Shown: one piece after another, positions 1-22,264 of the stretch
Numbering within the stretch: position 1 is the stretch's first letter
Layout of the letters: the number at the start of each line of letters is the position of its first letter
Source: Elephas maximus indicus
Lineage: Eukaryota; Chordata; Mammalia; Proboscidea; Elephantidae
Direction of reading: 5' to 3'
Length of the DNA: 64,000 bases
Assembly (NCBI RefSeq): GCF_024166365.1
Contig: NC_064820.1
Coordinates: 147,828,001 to 147,892,000 of the forward strand
The notes under the pieces: model-generated
Seen by the model: only the letters and a program-made list of their open reading frames with translations
Databases searched by the model: none
Told to the model about the DNA's origin: nothing
Translations under genes and position numbers: made by a program

Positions 1-599
1 TCAACCCATCATGTTAAGGGCTTTCTTCTTTTTTACTGACCCTCTACTTTACCAAGCATGATGTCCTTCTCCAGGGACTGGTCCCTCCTGATCACAGGTC
101 CAAAGTAACTGAGACAAAGTCTCGCCATCCTCACTTCTAAGGAACATTCTGGTTATACGTCTTCCAAGACAGATTTGCTTGTTCGTTTGGCAGTCCATGA
201 TATATATTCGATATTCTTCACCAACACCATAATTCAAAGGCATCAATTCTTCTTCAGTCTCATTCATTGTCCTGCTTTCACATGCATATGAGGTGATTGA
301 AAATTCCATGGCTTGGATCAGGCCCACTCTAATCCTCAAAGTGACATCCTTGCTTTTAAACACTTTAAAAAGGTCTTTTGCAGCAGATTTGCCCAATGCA
401 ATATGTCATTTTACTTCTAGACTGCTGCTTCCATAAACATTGATTGCAGATCCAAGTAAAATGAAATCCTTGACAACTTCAATATTTTTTGTTTATCATG
501 ATGTTGCTTATTGATCCACTTGTAAGGATTTTTGTTTTATGTTGAGGTATAATCCATACTGAAGGCTGTGGTCTTTGATCTTCACCAGCAAGTGCTTTA

Positions 600-1060
600 A
601 GTCCTCTTCATTTTTGGCAAGCAAAGTTGTGTCATCTGCATATCGCAGATTGTTAATGAGTCTTCTTTCACTCCTGATGCCACATTCTTCTTCACATAGT
701 CTAGCTTCTAGGATTATTTGCTCAGTATACGGGTTGAATAAATATGTTGAAAGGATATAACCCTGATGAACACCTTTCCTGATTTTAAATCACGTAGTGT
801 CCCTTGTTCTGTATGAAAGACTGTGTCTTGGTCTATGCCATGAGCACAAATAAGTGTTCTGGAATTCCCATTGTTTGCAATGTTATCCATAATGTGTTGT
901 GATCCACACAGCTAAATGCCTTTGCATAGTCAATAAAACACAGGTAAACATCTTTCTGGTATTCTCTGCTTTCAGCTAAGATCCATCTGACATGAGCAAT
1001 GATATCCCCCATTTCATGTCCTCTTCTGAATCTGGCTTGAATTTCTGGTAGTTCCCTGTC
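600..1060 (-). pseudogene. RTE reverse transcriptase fragment with intact YADD
   Basis: This is part of the minus-strand RTE. Read on that strand it encodes the palm of the reverse transcriptase: an IDYAKAF-like motif A near 905-930 and the catalytic LRYADDTTLLA motif at about 617-648. In the plus-strand RTE copy at 4660-5721 the second catalytic aspartate is replaced (YAYD). The flanking frame has stops, so no functional protein is expected; the fragment mainly fixes family and strand. Confidence 0.75.
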
Positions 1061-1183
1061 ACTGCTACGATCGTTTTTTAATTATCTTCAGCAAAATTTT
1101 ACCTGCATGTGATATTAATGATATTGTTGGATAATTTCCACATTCTGTTGGATCACATTTTTTGGAATGGGCATGTATATGGA

Positions 1184-2174
1184 TGCAGTGAGATAGATCG
1201 ATTTTGTTGGACTTTCTGTCCATGGCCTTGTAACTCCCACCCAAGTGATTGGGTGGGACTATACAAATAGGGTAGTTATGTCCCACCAAGGGGACTGGTC
1301 AGTTTTTCCCATCCTGCTGGTCTTGAAGTGAGCCATGCCAGAGGCGGGAAGAAGAGGATCCTACCGCCACCAAGGAAGAACAGGCAGGAGCAAAGAGAAT
1401 GTTCTTTGGACCCAGGATCCCTGCATTGAAAAGCTCATGGAACCTGGAGACTTGAGAGAGAGAGTGAGCTGTAACCCTGAAGATGGCGAGAAATGGTGAC
1501 AGGAGGCTTCCTGGCCCACGAAGGATAGAAAGATGAGTACCTGGGGTGTCTCTGAGGACTTACTAACCCAAACCAAACCAAAGCCAGTGCCGTCGAGTTG
1601 ATTCAGACTCATAGCGACCCTATAGTACAGAGTAGAACTGCCCCATAGAGTTTCCAAGGAGCGCCTGGCGGATTTGAACTGCCGACCCTTTGGTTAGCAG
1701 CCGTAGCGCTTAACCACTATGCCACCAGCGTTTCTGAGGACTTACTAAAAAAAAAAAACTTTTTTTTTAGCAGGGGCTAAAAGAGCTTTGTAACACTTGC
1801 CTGAGCAGGGCAGAGGCAGAGGGCCAGAGAGGTGTGCCTCTGAGCACAGCTGGGAAGAGGGTGTCCTGATGGAAGATTTGTGTCCTGAGTGTTCCTGAAC
1901 CTGAATTGTAACCTGTTACTTCCCTAATAAACCCCATAATTATGAATATTGTCTGTGAGCTATGTGTGGCCATTGCAATGAATTATTGTACCCAGCAGAG
2001 AAGTAGAGAATGTCATGGGAGGGATGGTTGGTGTCAGAATTGGTAAAAATGGCAGAGAGAGAAGGCATGTCAGAACTCTGTGTCATAGGAATCAGCCTTG
2101 AGCTGTTGATCTTGATTCTCCTTCCCCTTGTGAAATTAGAGCGGGTCAGACACCACCCCCACGCTGTTTTTACA
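1184..2174 (+). mobile_element. Solo-LTR-like ERV element inserted in the RTE
   Basis: The element starts TGCAGTG and ends TTTTTACA, so it has the TG...CA ends of an LTR. It is flanked by the 5-bp duplication ATGGA (1179-1183 and 2175-2179). RTE sequence resumes directly after the right copy. An AATAAA signal lies near 1927. Excluding the AfroSINE at 1567-1732 and one copy of its duplication, the element is about 810 bp. A segment near 2029 (TGGTGTCAGAATTGG) resembles a tRNA-Leu primer-binding site. This could mean that the interval is an LTR plus a little internal sequence rather than a pure solo LTR. The family was not identified. Confidence 0.6.
1567..1732 (-). mobile_element. AfroSINE (tRNA-derived SINE) inside the LTR
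   Basis: This minus-strand SINE reads CCACCAG.GTTTC-like at its right (5') end and ends at the left in the CCAAACCAAACC tail typical of the family. It is bounded by a perfect 16-bp target-site duplication, TCTGAGGACTTACTAA, at 1551-1566 and 1733-1748. It therefore inserted after the LTR, which had itself inserted into the RTE. Confidence 0.9.
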
Positions 2175-4651: not shown

Positions 4652-4659
4652 GGTTGATA

Positions 4660-5721
4660 TTGACTATGCAAAGACATTTGACTTTGTGGATCATAACAAG
4701 TTATGGGTAACATTGCAAAGAATGGGAATTCTGAAACACTTAATTATGCTCATGAGGAAGACCAAGAAGCAGTTGTCTGAACAGAACAAGGGGATACTGC
4801 ATAGTTTAAAATCAGGAAAGGTATGCATCAGGGTTGTATCCTTTCACCATACTTATTATATCTGTGTGCTGAGCAAATAATCCAAGAAGCTAGACTATAT
4901 GAAGAAGAATGTGGTATCAGGATCTAAGGAAAACTCACTAACAACCTGCGATATGCATATGATACAACCTTGCTTGCTGAAAGTGAAGAGGGCTTGAAGC
5001 ACTTACTGATGAAGGTCAAAGACTTTAGTATGGATTGCACCTCAACATAAAGAAAAAAAAAACCCCTCACAGCTGGACCAATAAGCAACATCATGATAAA
5101 TGGTGAAAATATTGAAATCATCAAGATTTCATTTTATGTGGATCTACAATCAACCCCCATGAAAGCAGTGGTCAAGAAATTGAATGATGTATTGCACTGG
5201 GAAAATCTGCTGCAAAAGGCTTCATTAAAGTATTAACAAGCAAAGATGTCACTTTGAGGACTAAGGTGCACCATGGTATTTTAAATTGCCTCAGATGCAT
5301 GCAAAAGCTGGACAATGAATAAGGAAGACTGAAGAAGAACTGATGCCTTTGAATTGTCGTGTTGGCAAAGAATATTGAATATACCACAGACTGCCAGAAG
5401 AATGAATGAATCTGTCTTGAGAGAAGTATAGCCAGAATGTGCCTTAGAAGCAAGGATGATGCTACTTTATCTCACATACTTTGGACATGTTATCAGGAGG
5501 GACCAGTCTCTGGAGAAGGACATCATACTTGGTAAAGTAGAGGGTCAGCAAAAAAGAGGAAGACTCTCAACAAGATGGACTGACAGGGCAGCTGCAACAA
5601 TGGAGTTAAGCATAACAATTGTGAGGATGGTGCAGGACCAGGCAGTATTTGGTCTGTTTTACATAGGGTCGCTATGAGTCAGAACCAACTCAACAGCACC
5701 TAAAAACAAAATAACAACATG
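4660..5721 (+). mobile_element. 5'-truncated RTE copy
   Basis: This is a plus-strand RTE copy truncated within the reverse transcriptase and running to the 3' end (GGGTCGCTATGAGTC followed by an ACC-TAA-rich tail near 5690-5715). An 8-bp duplication, GGTTGATA, flanks it (4652-4659 and 5722-5729). The YADD motif is mutated to YAYD near 4950-4965. The 3' tail shares GGTCGCTATGAGTC with the AfroSINEs in this window, which supports RTE as the partner that moves the SINE. Confidence 0.8.
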
Positions 5722-5794
5722 GGTTGATAAATATAGACATAAATATGTTACATATATGGTAAGTGGTATGTATGTGTATATATATATACATATG

Positions 5795-15544: not shown

Positions 15545-15582
15545 TTATGCCAGAATATAAAAGATAATAAAAGTTAAACTTG

Positions 15583-15844
15583 GCCAAGATGGCTGACTAG
15601 GTAGATGCTACCTCGGATCCCTCTTGCAACAAAGACTCGGAAAAACCAGTGAATTGATCACATACATAACAATCTACGAACCCTGAATAACAAACACAGA
15701 TTTAAAGAGTTGACCTGAATGACAGAGACGGAGAACGAACAAATACGGGGAAGCAGTGACTGTTTTCGGAGCCTGGAGCCAGCGTCCCAGTCAGTGATGG
15801 TTCAGAGACAGCAGTCAATATAAAACCACATAAAGAAGCAGACC
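15583..15844 (+). promoter_or_regulatory. L1 5'UTR / internal promoter region
   Basis: The element begins with an AAGATGGC YY1-type core at about 15586-15593, known in L1s to set the transcription start. The leader is only about 260 bp if ORF1 starts at 15845, shorter than the 900-bp human L1 leader. No CpG-island character is evident. Confidence 0.6.
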
Positions 15845-16808
15845 ATGACAGCTTCTACAACCCCCCCCAAACAGAAGAATCAAAATCTTTCCCAAATGAA
15901 GATACAATCCTGGAATTATCAGATACAGAATATAAAAAACTAATTTACAGAATGCTTCAAGACATCAGGGATGACCTCAGAAATGAAATAAGGCAAACTG
16001 CAGAAAAAACGAAGGAACACACTGATAAAACAGTTGAAGAACTCAAAAAGATTATTCAAGAACATAGTGGAAAAATTAATAAGTTGCAAGAATCCATAGA
16101 GAGACAGCATGCAGACATCCAAAAGATTAACAATAAAATTACAGAATTAGACAATGCAATAGGAAGTCAGAGGAGCAGACTCAAGCAATTAGAATGCAGA
16201 CTGGGAAATCTGGAGGACCAGGGAATTAACACCACCATAGCTGAAAAAAAAAATCAGATAAAAGAATTTAAAAAAATGAAGAAACCCTAAGAATCATGTG
16301 GGACTCTATCAAGAAGGATAACTTGCGTGTGATTGGAGTCCCAGAACAGGGAGGGAGGACAGAAAACACAGAGAAAATAGTTGAAGATCTGCTGACAGAA
16401 AACTTCCCTGACATCATGAAAGATGAAAGGATATCTATCCAAGATGCTCATCGAACCCCATTTACGACTGATCCAAAAAGAAAAACACCACGACATATTA
16501 TCATCAAACTTGCCAAAACCAAAGATAAAGAGAAAATTTTAAAAGCAGCCAGGGAGAAACAAAAGGTCTCCTTCAAGGGAGAATCAATAAGAATAAGTTC
16601 AGACTACTCAGCAGAAACCATGCAGGCAAGAAGGCAATGGGATGACATATACAGAGCACTGAAGGAGAAAAACTGCCAGCCAAGGATCATATATCCAGCA
16701 AAACTCTCTCTGAAATATGAAGGCAAAATTAAGATATTTACAGATAAACACAAAAACACAAGCTTAGAGAATTTGCAAAAACCAAACCAAAGCTACAAGA
16801 AATACTAA
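15845..16808 (+). pseudogene. L1 ORF1 (RNA-binding chaperone), frameshifted
   Basis: ORF1p is a trimeric nucleic-acid chaperone that binds L1 RNA. An open frame from 15952 to 16290 encodes a charged coiled coil (heptads from about residue 20 to 95). A second frame, 16296-16808, encodes the RRM-like region beginning LRVIGVPE and the C-terminal domain (SAETMQARRQW, YPAKLSL). The frame changes near 16250-16295 in an A-run. A likely native ATG at 15845 is in another frame and is separated from the coiled coil by a C8 tract near 15860-15867, so a second slip is likely. Not functional as it stands. Confidence 0.85.
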
Positions 16809-17290
16809 AGGAAATTGTTTGGTCAGAAAACCAATAACATCAGATACCAGCACAACACAAGGTCACAAAACAGAACATCCTGGTATCAACTCAAATAGGG
16901 AAATCACAAAAACAAATTAAGATTAAAAAAAAGAAAAAGCTCATAACAGGGAATCATTGAAGTCAATACATAAAAGTTCACAACAATCAAAAAGAGGGAC
17001 TAAATACAGGTGGCATATAACTGCCATATGGAGAGTGATACAAGGCGATATAGGACAATACAAGTTAGGTTTTTACTTAGAAAAATAGGGGTAAATATTA
17101 AGGTAACCACAAAGAGGTATAACAACTCCATAACTCAAGATAAAAGCCAAGAAAAACGTAACGACTCAACAAACATAAAGTCAAATACTATGAAAATGAG
17201 GATCTCACAATTTACAAAGAAAAACATCTCAGCACAAAAAAGTAAGTGGAAAAATGAAATTGTCAACAACACACATAAAAAGGCATCAAA
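16809..17290 (+). other. L1 inter-ORF spacer with a 94-codon frame
   Basis: The ORF1-ORF2 gap is about 480 bp, long compared with the human L1 spacer of about 60 bp. It holds an open frame, 17010-17294, whose stop TGA overlaps the ORF2 ATG as ATGA (17291-17294). The frame is Lys/Asn-rich, matching the A-rich strand, so chance is likely. I recognise no domain. Confidence 0.5.
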
Positions 17291-20200
17291 ATGACAACAC
17301 TAAACACTTATTTATCTATAATTACGCTGAATGTAAATGGACTAAATGCACCAATAAAGAGATAGAGAGTCTCGGACTGGATAAATAAACACGATCCGTC
17401 TATATGCTGCCTACAAGAGACACACCTTAGACTTAGAGACACAAACAAACGAAAACTCAAAGGATGGAAAAAAATATATCAAACAAACAATAAGCAAAAA
17501 AGAAGAGGAGTAGCAATATTAATTTCTGACAAAATAGATTTTAAACTTAAATCCACCACAAAGGATAAAGAAGGACACTACATAATGATAAAAGGGACAA
17601 TTGATCAGGAAGATATAACCATATTAAATATTTATGCACCCAATGACAGGGCTGCAAGATACATAAATCAAATTTTAACAGAACTGAAAAGTGAGATAGA
17701 CACCTCCACAATTATAGTAGGAGACTTCAACACACCACTTTCAGAGAAGGACAGGACATCCAGTAAGAAGCTCAATAGAGACATGGAAGACCTACTTACA
17801 ACAATCAACCAACTTGACCTCATTGACTTATACAGAACTCTCCACCCAACTGCTGCAAAGTATACTTTTTTTTCTAGCACACATGGAACATTCTCTAGAA
17901 TAGACCACATATTAGGTCATAAAACAAACCTTTGCAGAATCCAAAACATCGAAATGTTACAAAGCATCTTCTCAGACCACAAGGCAATAAAACTAGAAAT
18001 TAATAACAGAAAAACTAGGGAAAAGAAATCAAATACTTGGAAACTGAACAATAAAAAAAAACCCTCCTGAAAAAAGACTGGGTTATAGAAGACATCAAGG
18101 AGGGAATAAGGAAATTCATAGAATGCAACGAGAATGAAAACACTTTCTATCAAAACCTCTGGGACACAGCAAAAGCAGTGCTCAGAGGCCAATTTATATC
18201 CGTAAATGCACACATACAAAAAGAAGAAAGAGCCAAAATCAGAGAACTGTCCCTACCACTTGAACAAATAGAAAGTGAGCAACAAAAGAATCCATCAGGC
18301 ACCAGAAGAAAACAAATAATAAAAATTAGAGCTGAACTAAATGAATCAGAGAACAGAAAAACAATTGAAACAATTAACAAAGCCAAAAGCTGGTTCTTTG
18401 AAAAAATTAACAAAATTGATAAACCATTGGCCAGACTGACTAAAGAAATACAGGAAAGGAAACAAATAACCCAAATAAGAAACGAGAAGGGCCACATCAC
18501 AACAGACCCAACTGAAATTAAAAGAATCATATCAGATTATTACGAAAAATTGTACTCTAACAAATTTGCAAACCTAGAAGAAATGGATGAATTCCTGGAA
18601 AAACACTACCTACCTAAACTAACACATTCAGAAGTAGAACAACTAAATAGACCCATAACAAAAAAAGAGATTGAATCGGTAATCAAAAAACTCCCAACAA
18701 AAAAAAGCCCTGGCCCGGACAGCTTCACTGCAGAGTTCTACCAAACTTTCAGAGAAGAGTTAACACCACTACTACTAAAGGTACTTCAAAGCATAGAAAA
18801 TGACAGAATACTACCCAACTCATTCTATGAAGCCACCATCTCCCTGATACCAAAACCAGGTAAAGACATCACAAAAAAAGAAAATTAGAGACCTATATCC
18901 CTCATGAGCATAGTTGCAAAAATCCTCAACAAAATTCTAGCCAATAGAATTCAACAACATATCAAAAAAATAATTCACCACGACCAAGTGGGATTTATAC
19001 CAGGTATGAAAGGCTGGTTTAATATTAGAAAAACCATTAATGTAAGCCACCATATTAATAAAACAAAAGACAAAAACCACATGATCTTATCAATTGATGC
19101 AGAAAAGGCATTTGACAAAGTCCAACACCCATTTATGATAAAAACTCTCAGCAAAATAGGAATGGAAGGAAAATTCCTCAACATAATAAAGGGCATCTAT
19201 GCAAAGCCAACAGCCAACATCACTCTAAATGGAGAGAACCTGAAAGCATTTCCCTTGAGAACGGGAACCAGACAAGGATGCCCTTTATCACCGCTCTTAT
19301 TTTTTTATTCAACATTGTGCTAGAAGTCCTAGCCAGAGCAATTAGGCTAGACAAAGAAATAAAGGGCATCCGGATTGGCAAAGAGGAAGTAAAATTATCT
19401 CTATTTGCAGATGACATGATCTTATACACAGAAAACCCTAAGGAATCCTCCAGAAAACTACTGAAACTAATAGAAGAGTTTGGCAGAGTCTCAGGTTATA
19501 AGATAAACATACAAAAATCACTTGGATTCCTCTACATCAACAAAAAGAACATCGAAGAGGAAATAACCAAATCAATACCATTCACAGTAACCCCCAAGAA
19601 GATAAAATACTTAGGAATAAATCTTACCAAGAATGTAAAAGACCTATTCAAAGAAAACTACAAAGCTCTACTACAAGAAATTCAAAAGGACATACTTAAG
19701 TGGAAAAACATACCTTGCTCATGGATAGGAAGACTTAACATAGTAAAAATGTCTATTCTACCAAAAGCCATCTATACATACAATGCACTTCCGATCCAAA
19801 TTCCAATGTCATTTTTTAAGGTGATAGAGAAACAAATCACCAACTTCATATGGAAGGGAAAGAAGCCTCGGATAAGCAAAGCATTACTGAAAAAGAAGAA
19901 GAAAGTGGGAGGCCTCACTCTACCTGATTTCAGAACCTATTATACAGCCACAGTAGTCAAAACAGCCTGGTACTGGTACAACAACAGACACATAGACCAA
20001 TGGAACAGAATTGAGAACCCAGATATAAATCCATTCACATATAAGCAGCTGATATTTGACAAAGGCCCAGTGTCAGTTAATTGGGGAAAAGATAGTCTTT
20101 TTAACAAATGGTGCTGGCATAACTGGATATCCATTTGCAAAAAAATGAAACAGGACCCATACCTCACACCATGCACAAAAACTAACTCCAAGTGGATCAA

Positions 20201-21038
20201 AGACCTAAACATAAAGACTAAAACGATAAAGATCATGGAAGAAAAAATAGGGACAACCTTAGGAGCCCTAATGCAAGGCATAAACAGAATACAAAACATT
20301 ACCAAAAATGACGAAGAGAAACCAGATAACTGGGAGCTCCTAAAAATCAAACACCTATGCTCATCTAAAGACTTCACCAGAAGAGTAAAAAGACCACCTA
20401 CAGACTGGGAAAGAATTTTCAGCTACGACATCTCCGACCAGCCCCTGATCTCTAAAATCTATATGATTCTGTCAAAACTCAACCACAAAAAGACAAACAA
20501 CCCAATCAAGAAGTGGGCCAAGGATATGAACACACACTTCACTAAAGAAGATATTCAGGCAGCTAACAGATACATGAGAAAATGCTCTCGATCATTAGCC
20601 ATTAGAGAAATGCAAATTAAAACCACGATGAGATTCCATCTCACTCCAACAAGGCTGGCATTAATCCAAAAAACACAAAATAATAAATGTTGGAGAGGCT
20701 GCAGAGAGATTGGAACTCTTATACAATGCTGGTGGGAATGTAAAATGGTACAACCACTTTGGAAATCTATCTGGCGTTATCTTAAACAGTTAGAAATAGA
20801 ACTACCATACAACCCAGAAGTCCCACTCCTCAGAATATACCCTAGAGAAATAAGAGCCTTCACACAAACAGATATATGCACACCCATGTTTATTGCAGCA
20901 TTGTTTACAATAGCAAAAAGCTGGAAGCAACCAAGGTGTCCATCAACGGATGAATGGGTAAATAAATTGTGGTATATTCACACAATGGAATACTACGCAT
21001 CAATAAAGAACAGTGACAAATCTGTGAAACATTCATAA
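17291..21038 (+). pseudogene. L1 ORF2 (endonuclease and reverse transcriptase), four lesions
   Basis: ORF2p nicks target DNA and reverse transcribes L1 RNA. The start is chosen at ATG 17291, followed by TLNVNGLNAP. The endonuclease includes CCLQETHL, IVGDFNTPL and SDHKAI. Reverse transcriptase motif A ([12 protein letters not shown]) is near 19095, and the FADD catalytic motif is near 19405. The C-terminal cysteine motif is near 20690-20740. Lesions are TAG at 17363-17365, a frameshift in an A-run near 18050-18065, TAG at 18886-18888, and a frameshift in a T-run near 19300. The cysteine motif has Gln (LIQCWW) where sibling copies at 31450 and 59060 have His. Inactive as it stands. Confidence 0.92.
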
Positions 21039-22123
21039 CATGGAGGAACCTGGAAGGCATTATGCTGAGCGAAATTAGTCAGAGGCAAAAGGACAAATAT
21101 TGTATAAGACCACTATTATAAGATCTTGAGAAATAGTATAAACTGAGAAGAACACATACTTTTGTGGTTACGAGGGGGGGAGGGAGGGGGGGAGAGGGTT
21201 TTTTACTGATTAGTTAGTAGATAAGAGCTACTTTAGGTGAAGGGAAGGACAATACTCAATACACAGAAGGTCAGCTCAAATGGACGGGACCAAAAGCAAA
21301 GAAGTTTCCGGGATAAACTGAATGCTTCAAAGGTCAGTGAAGCAAGGGCGGGGGTTTGGGGACTATGGCTTAAGGGGACTTCTAAGTCAATTGGCAAAAT
21401 AATACTATTATGAAAACATTCTGCATCCTACTTTGAAATGTGGCATCTGGAGTCTTAAATGCTAACAAGCGGCCATCTAAGATGCATCAATTGGTCTCAA
21501 CCCACTGGAATCAAAGGAGAATGAAGAACACCAAGGTCACACGACAACTATGAGCCCAAGAGACAGAAAGGGCCACATGAACCAAAGACTTACATCATCC
21601 TGAGACCAGAAGAACTAGATGGTGTCTGGCCACAACTGATGACTACCCTGACAGGGAGCACAACAGAGAACCCCTGAGGGAGCAGGAGATCAGTGGGATG
21701 CAGACCCCAAATTCTCATAAAAAGACCAGACTTAATGGTCCGACTGAGACTAGAGGAATCCCGGCGGTCATGGTCCCCAAACCTTCTGTTGCCCCAGGAC
21801 AGGAACCATTCCCGAAGACAACTCATCAGACATGGAAGGGACTGGACAATGGGTTGGAGAGAGGTGTTGATGAAGAGTGAGCTACTTGTATCAGGTGGAC
21901 ACTTGAGACTGTGTTGGCATCTCCTGTCTGGAGGGGAAATTGGAGGGTAGAGAGGGTTAGAAACTGGCAAAATTGTTACGAAAGGAGAGACCGGAAGGGC
22001 TGACTCATTAGGGGGAGAGTAAGTGGGAGTATGGAGTAAGGTGTATATAAGCTTATACGTGACAGACTGACTTGATTTGTAAACGTTCACTTAAAGCTCA
22101 ATAAAAATTATTAAAAAAAAAAA
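21039..22123 (+). other. L1 3'UTR, G-tract and first poly(A)
   Basis: The 3'UTR contains a G-rich polypurine run at 21173-21198 (several G3+ blocks, quadruplex-capable), a hallmark of mammalian L1 3'UTRs. AATAAA lies at 22100-22105 and is followed by the first A-tail at about 22112-22123. Confidence 0.85.
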
Positions 22124-22226
22124 GAGAGAGACGAGAAGTTTCAGGGAAACATCACGTATTGAGAACCAGAATTTGTAAGCTGAAAATTATGTGTCTATGG
22201 TCAGAATAAATTTTATTCTATCCACC
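22124..22226 (+). other. 3'-transduced segment
   Basis: This 103-bp non-L1 segment lies between two A-tails and inside the target duplication. It carries its own AATAAA at 22205-22210, 17 bases before the second A-tail (22227-22250). This is the pattern of read-through past the weak L1 signal and use of a downstream genomic signal at the source locus. Confidence 0.85.
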
Positions 22227-22264
22227 AAAAAAAAAAAAAAAGGAAAAAAAAAAAGTTAAACTTG

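Follow-up and report, generated by a model that had tools for sequence, protein, structure and literature searches.

A spliced L1 insertion in the Elephas maximus indicus genome with a probable 3' transduction and no source L1 at the locus of the transduced sequence

Our analysis revealed an L1 insertion that carries about 105 bases of non-L1 sequence, here called the tag, behind its own 3' end and lacks an intron of its 5'UTR. It lies on the plus strand of a stretch of 64,000 nucleotides of the Elephas maximus indicus genome (assembly GCF_024166365.1, NC_064820.1, positions 147,828,001 to 147,892,000), referred to below as the window. The most fitting reading of the insertion is a 3' transduction that lacks a parent and found siblings, carried on a spliced integrated retrotransposed element (SpIRE), and as such it is ordinary in kind. 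The source L1 probably once stood at a locus on C7, from which it was later lost or where it is absent from the haplotype, and gave a spliced read-through RNA that was inserted on C2, in the window.

The insertion is bounded by perfect copies of AAAAGTTAAACTTG, a 14-bp target site duplication (15569-15582 and 22251-22264) with just two occurrences across the window. Between the two copies lie, in order, the first exon of the L1 5'UTR (15583-15794; megablast against 13 sibling stretches and a comparison of 5' ends), the splice junction CCCAGTCAG/TGATGG (15794/15795; sibling comparison and exact junction counts), and the rest of the L1 (15795-22112), comprising the 3'UTR and several short frames with what is left of ORF1 and ORF2, as assigned from the list of open reading frames and Pfam. 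Pfam placed L1 RNA-binding domains in 16296-16805, an endonuclease domain in 17585-18067, and reverse transcriptase in 18904-19320 and 19278-21035; it gave no match above the cut-off for 15952-16287 and no match whatever for 18178-18885. The AATAAA of the L1 itself (22100-22105), which was bypassed, is followed by a first poly(A) tract of 11 A (22113-22123), by the tag (22124-22228, delimited by genome searches and alignment), and by a second poly(A) tail with a GG interruption (22227-22250). The 3' limit of the tag falls at 22226-22228: its last two A may be templated, and the C7 locus likewise reads CCACCAA there. The tag has an AATAAA of its own (22205-22210), which precedes the A run at 22227 by 16 bases and is shared with C7; this is the likely downstream polyadenylation signal. 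Unique non-L1 sequence thus stands between two poly(A) tracts inside one target site duplication, with a polyadenylation signal shortly upstream of the second tail, and in its duplication and poly(A) the insertion is otherwise canonical. The original prediction had described just this arrangement, namely two poly(A) tracts around a non-L1 segment, a second AATAAA ahead of the second tail and a single perfect 14-bp duplication enclosing everything, and it was borne out in the window sequence.

The tag is not a regular part of the L1 3' end. For the 3' end of the window L1 (21800-22120) there were 2535 candidate places in the assembly, and the best 40, which were scored, comprised the window and 39 others at 98-99%. 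Sibling 3' ends were inspected by eye at 29 of these 39 loci (17, plus 12 on the reverse strand). All 29 end in the same AATAAAAATTATT and an A tract, after which their flanks differ from the tag, and in none of the 29 ends read was the tag present. We therefore dropped the reading of the tag as a 3'UTR variant of an L1 subfamily, the outcome that the original prediction had named as fatal to itself: the tag is absent from these siblings and occurs at just two places in the genome, no point in favor of such a variant was found, and we count it as refuted, with a negligible chance of being right. We likewise dropped the idea that the tag belongs to a known RNA family, the stretch L002 being without an Rfam match at gathering score. 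In one sibling (L017), a segment of about 22 bases lies between two A tracts just past the L1 3' end, and is perhaps another very short 3' transduction.

A search of the 3.4-Gb assembly with the tag (E<=10) returned two places, the window and C7:46936983-46937084 (92%); scoring was limited to the best candidates, and the tag had two, both of which were scored. With its flanks, the tag aligns to C7:46936977-46937086 (91%) over window positions 22119-22228, beginning within the first A tract and ending where the second tail begins. Past the end of the alignment, C7 continues with other sequence and has no poly(A) tail. We regard C7 as the likely origin of the tag because the single other copy lies there, without such a tail. 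The tag search found no third copy and no tagged sibling L1 in the assembly, contrary to the expectation that the tag would reveal sibling copies.

We then compared 20 kb of C7 with the window L1 and its flanks, and the statements that follow hold among the 80 of 94 matches listed. The 5.3 kb upstream of the C7 tag contained no match to the window L1, and the nearest L1 remains were three opposite-strand pieces, 67-77% alike, of which the nearest ended 5.3 kb upstream of the tag. Besides the tag, the other matches were short repeats common to the window 5' flank, A/T tracts, and longer repeats, for example stretches of about 1 kb ending some 500 bases upstream of the tag, which match window 1-1184 and 4658-5724, outside the L1 of the insertion. 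In this assembly, C7 is an empty site with no adjacent L1. The tag had been expected as ordinary flanking DNA directly downstream of a parent L1, and the genome search led instead to a locus with no L1 directly upstream. This missing source lowers, without excluding, membership among 3' transductions, because known parentless cases likewise show none in a single assembly. The 3' transduction itself stands as the best reading of a non-L1 segment that is in sense orientation, has its own poly(A), lies inside the duplication and has an untailed counterpart at C7, whereas the accompanying predictions of a parent and of siblings failed.

The alignment at C7 starts at TTCTT/AATAAAAG, where TT/AATA...AAAAG forms an endonuclease-like site. 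The L1 endonuclease prefers TT/AAAA, from which TTCTT/AATAAAAG departs by one mismatch. This coincidence is weak evidence, since equally good sites are common at C7 (5.4% of positions lie within 6 bases of one, and 14% within 17) and the alignment start in the A tract is ill-defined. At the presumed poly(A)/flank boundary of the parent L1, C7 reads AATAAAAGAGTAACG. Where exactly the L1 gives way to the tag is uncertain, since the dozen or so bases that follow the first A tract, GAGAGAGACGAG, agree poorly with C7.

The state of this junction bears on the main alternative, in which C7 never had an L1. Reverse transcription would have begun on the poly(A) of an unrelated putative C7 RNA, proceeded for about 105 bases and switched templates to the poly(A) of a spliced L1 RNA; the tag would then never have been part of any L1 flank, and would be a foreign RNA end 3' of an L1. 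Such a switch agrees with the poor match of the junction bases, with the lack of an L1 directly upstream at C7 and with the A-rich C7 junction, which could anneal with the L1 tail. To our knowledge, there is no common class with foreign RNA 3' of an L1 that has its 5' end, and the junction coincides, if weakly, with an endonuclease-type site. L1/RNA chimeras are known, and template switching is among the mechanisms proposed (PMC13174262); however, the cases in the available text of that paper mainly have the foreign RNA 5' of the L1 part, and one phrase there, '3'-LINE-1 chimeras', we take to mean that the L1 is the 3' part. We consider a template switch unlikely. If it were true, catalogues based on structure only would count such L1/RNA products as transductions.

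The age of the window copy offers a measure for the divergence between tag and C7. In the 3' part of the L1, 26 of 1780 comparable columns show a difference private to the window copy, and the 14 usable siblings have 20-39 such differences; the other 15 of the 29 siblings were excluded as at least 6% different or with at most 1500 comparable columns. Judged from the private changes in the window copy and its siblings, the L1 family was active. Over the 110 aligned bases, the tag and its C7 counterpart show 10 differences. Past the junction, 93 bases contain 5 mismatches versus 2.7 expected if both branches are as old as the window copy (P 0.14); once the junction is counted in, there are 9 in 105 versus 3.1 expected (P 0.004). 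Apart from the messy junction, a direct single transfer from C7 to the window is compatible with these sequences, because the mismatches beyond the junction fit the age of the copy. For the same reason, serial transduction through older tagged copies, which the 91% identity had first suggested, is unneeded.

The differences between tag and C7, above the expectation from the L1 body when the junction is included, would also suit a true parent at a diverged C7 duplicate missing from the assembly, or a parent L1 that recombination between its flanking duplications excised from C7. We hold both to be highly improbable, however, as no third copy of the tag was found in the assembly and the divergence beyond the junction is as expected. 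With a source L1 at C7 itself, loss of that source would be more likely than continued segregation, because the window copy has about 1.5% private changes.

The 5' end of the insertion also departs from a complete L1. In the megablast comparison with 13 sibling stretches, seven match from the 5' end of the window L1 (15581 or 15582), one (L037) matches from 15796 (88%), and in the remaining five the match begins no earlier than 17036-20264. Relative to most of the seven that reach the 5' end, the window L1 starts some ten bases short. In L038, L042, L045, L048 and L049, a segment of 1294-1530 bases, GTAACC...TTAG, stands exactly at the window CCCAGTCAG/TGATGG junction, and the deletion in the window 5'UTR thus falls exactly between the GT and AG of five unspliced siblings. 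L043 is also unspliced, yet rearranged near the donor, and L047 is spliced in the same way as the window. On this sequence comparison, we classify the window L1 as a SpIRE, whose junction would have arisen by RNA splicing. The L1 had been called full-length, which proved wrong because the 5'UTR is incomplete, both the intron and some ten 5' bases being absent. The stretch ahead of the acceptor varies strongly in L038, L042, L043, L045, L048 and L049, with T tracts in L043 and L049 and AT-rich sequence in others; such a variable stretch might alter splicing.

Spliced copies form a small share of the L1s in this assembly. Exact 19-base junctions numbered 41 spliced (window included) and 1309 unspliced, a spliced share of 41/1350 or 3.0%, these being bare counts of exact matches; reversed-sequence controls gave 0. 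With 15700-15890 as the query, the best 40 of 2622 candidates (window included) each aligned over a single span of 165-191 bases that crosses the junction. Trees were built from three pieces of the L1 body; in them the window and L047, both spliced, are not sisters, with low support. By raw distance, L047 is the nearest of seven to the window in one piece (2.51%, the runner-up being at 2.53%) but in neither of the remaining pieces. Of the 40 scored matches to 15700-15890, 13 start no earlier than base 25 of the query (window 15724), which may mark a 5'UTR variant among spliced copies. Two same-strand spliced junctions lie 75 kb apart on C6 (18850930-18850948 and 18926235-18926253), and perhaps reflect a segmental duplication and not two insertions.

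A single RNA that had the L1 5' start, lacked the intron, read through at the 3' end, was cut at the AATAAA of the flank and was inserted at C2 would account for all of these features. The source L1 would have stood at about C7:46936977, where an A-rich endonuclease-type site had received it. Its transcript would have passed the L1 AATAAA and poly(A) tract, with cleavage about 105 bases further on, at the AATAAA of the C7 flank. Ordinary splicing would have taken out the 5'UTR intron of about 1.5 kb, in this transcript or at an earlier stage in one from the ancestor of the source. Insertion of the RNA at C2 by target-primed reverse transcription would have produced the 14-bp duplication. The source insertion, being unfixed, may have been lost by drift or may be missing from the haplotype, which would leave the empty C7 site in the assembly. 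New insertions are usually rare in their population, so loss of the parent with fixation of the offspring is expected under drift. Taken together, a source L1 at C7 is the best explanation: the single other place of the tag is untailed, the AATAAA is common to both places, and GT-AG is exact in five siblings. Set against it are the lack of an L1 at C7 in this assembly, the weak endonuclease match, the poor junction match and the finding of one tagged copy. The tag with its two tails, the duplication, the splice-type junction and the L1-less C7 site are directly seen, and from them we infer the former presence of an L1 at C7, the manner of its disappearance and the origin of the junction in RNA splicing.

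The insertion provides a datable trace of a source L1 that is absent from the assembly and has a defined locus at C7. It is a new example of known, ordinary L1 events and overturns nothing. Our literature searches, judged by title, found no paper on L1 transduction or splicing in elephants; near in subject are a placental L1 phylogeny (PMC1764860) and a study of mammalian retrotransposon activity (PMC12424770). Our results suggest that splicing within the 5'UTR leaves fossils in the L1 of another mammal, at a share like that in humans and at other splice sites.

With human L1 3' transductions, the insertion shares the order of L1, first poly(A), unique flank and second poly(A) within one duplication; unlike them, it comes from a different mammal and its source was not recovered (PMC9311842, PMC3024322). 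In humans, 51 of 268 high-confidence transductions have a non-reference source, on our reading of Table 4 (PMC9311842). Close as well are the canine 'parentless' 3' transductions, which likewise have a tag at a single locus without an adjacent L1 and a source read as absent from the genome; those insertions are dimorphic, in contrast to the window copy with its private changes of about 1.5% (PMC13103737, PMC12458276). Of 27 canine transductions, 3 were placed at most 50 bp downstream of a reference L1 (PMC12458276); for one parentless transduction, the 'empty' locus turned out to carry the L1 in another dog, which settled the case (PMC13103737). Human SpIREs account for 131 of the 6609 L1s that had earlier been annotated as full-length, about 2%, and the 41 of 1350 exact junctions (3.0%) counted here are a different kind of count (PMC5860796). 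As in human SpIREs, intra-5'UTR splicing is fixed in a genomic copy and affects a minor share of copies; unlike them, the window L1 has its donor about 212 bases from the start, an intron of about 1.5 kb and other splice sites, in the L1 of another mammal (PMC5860796).
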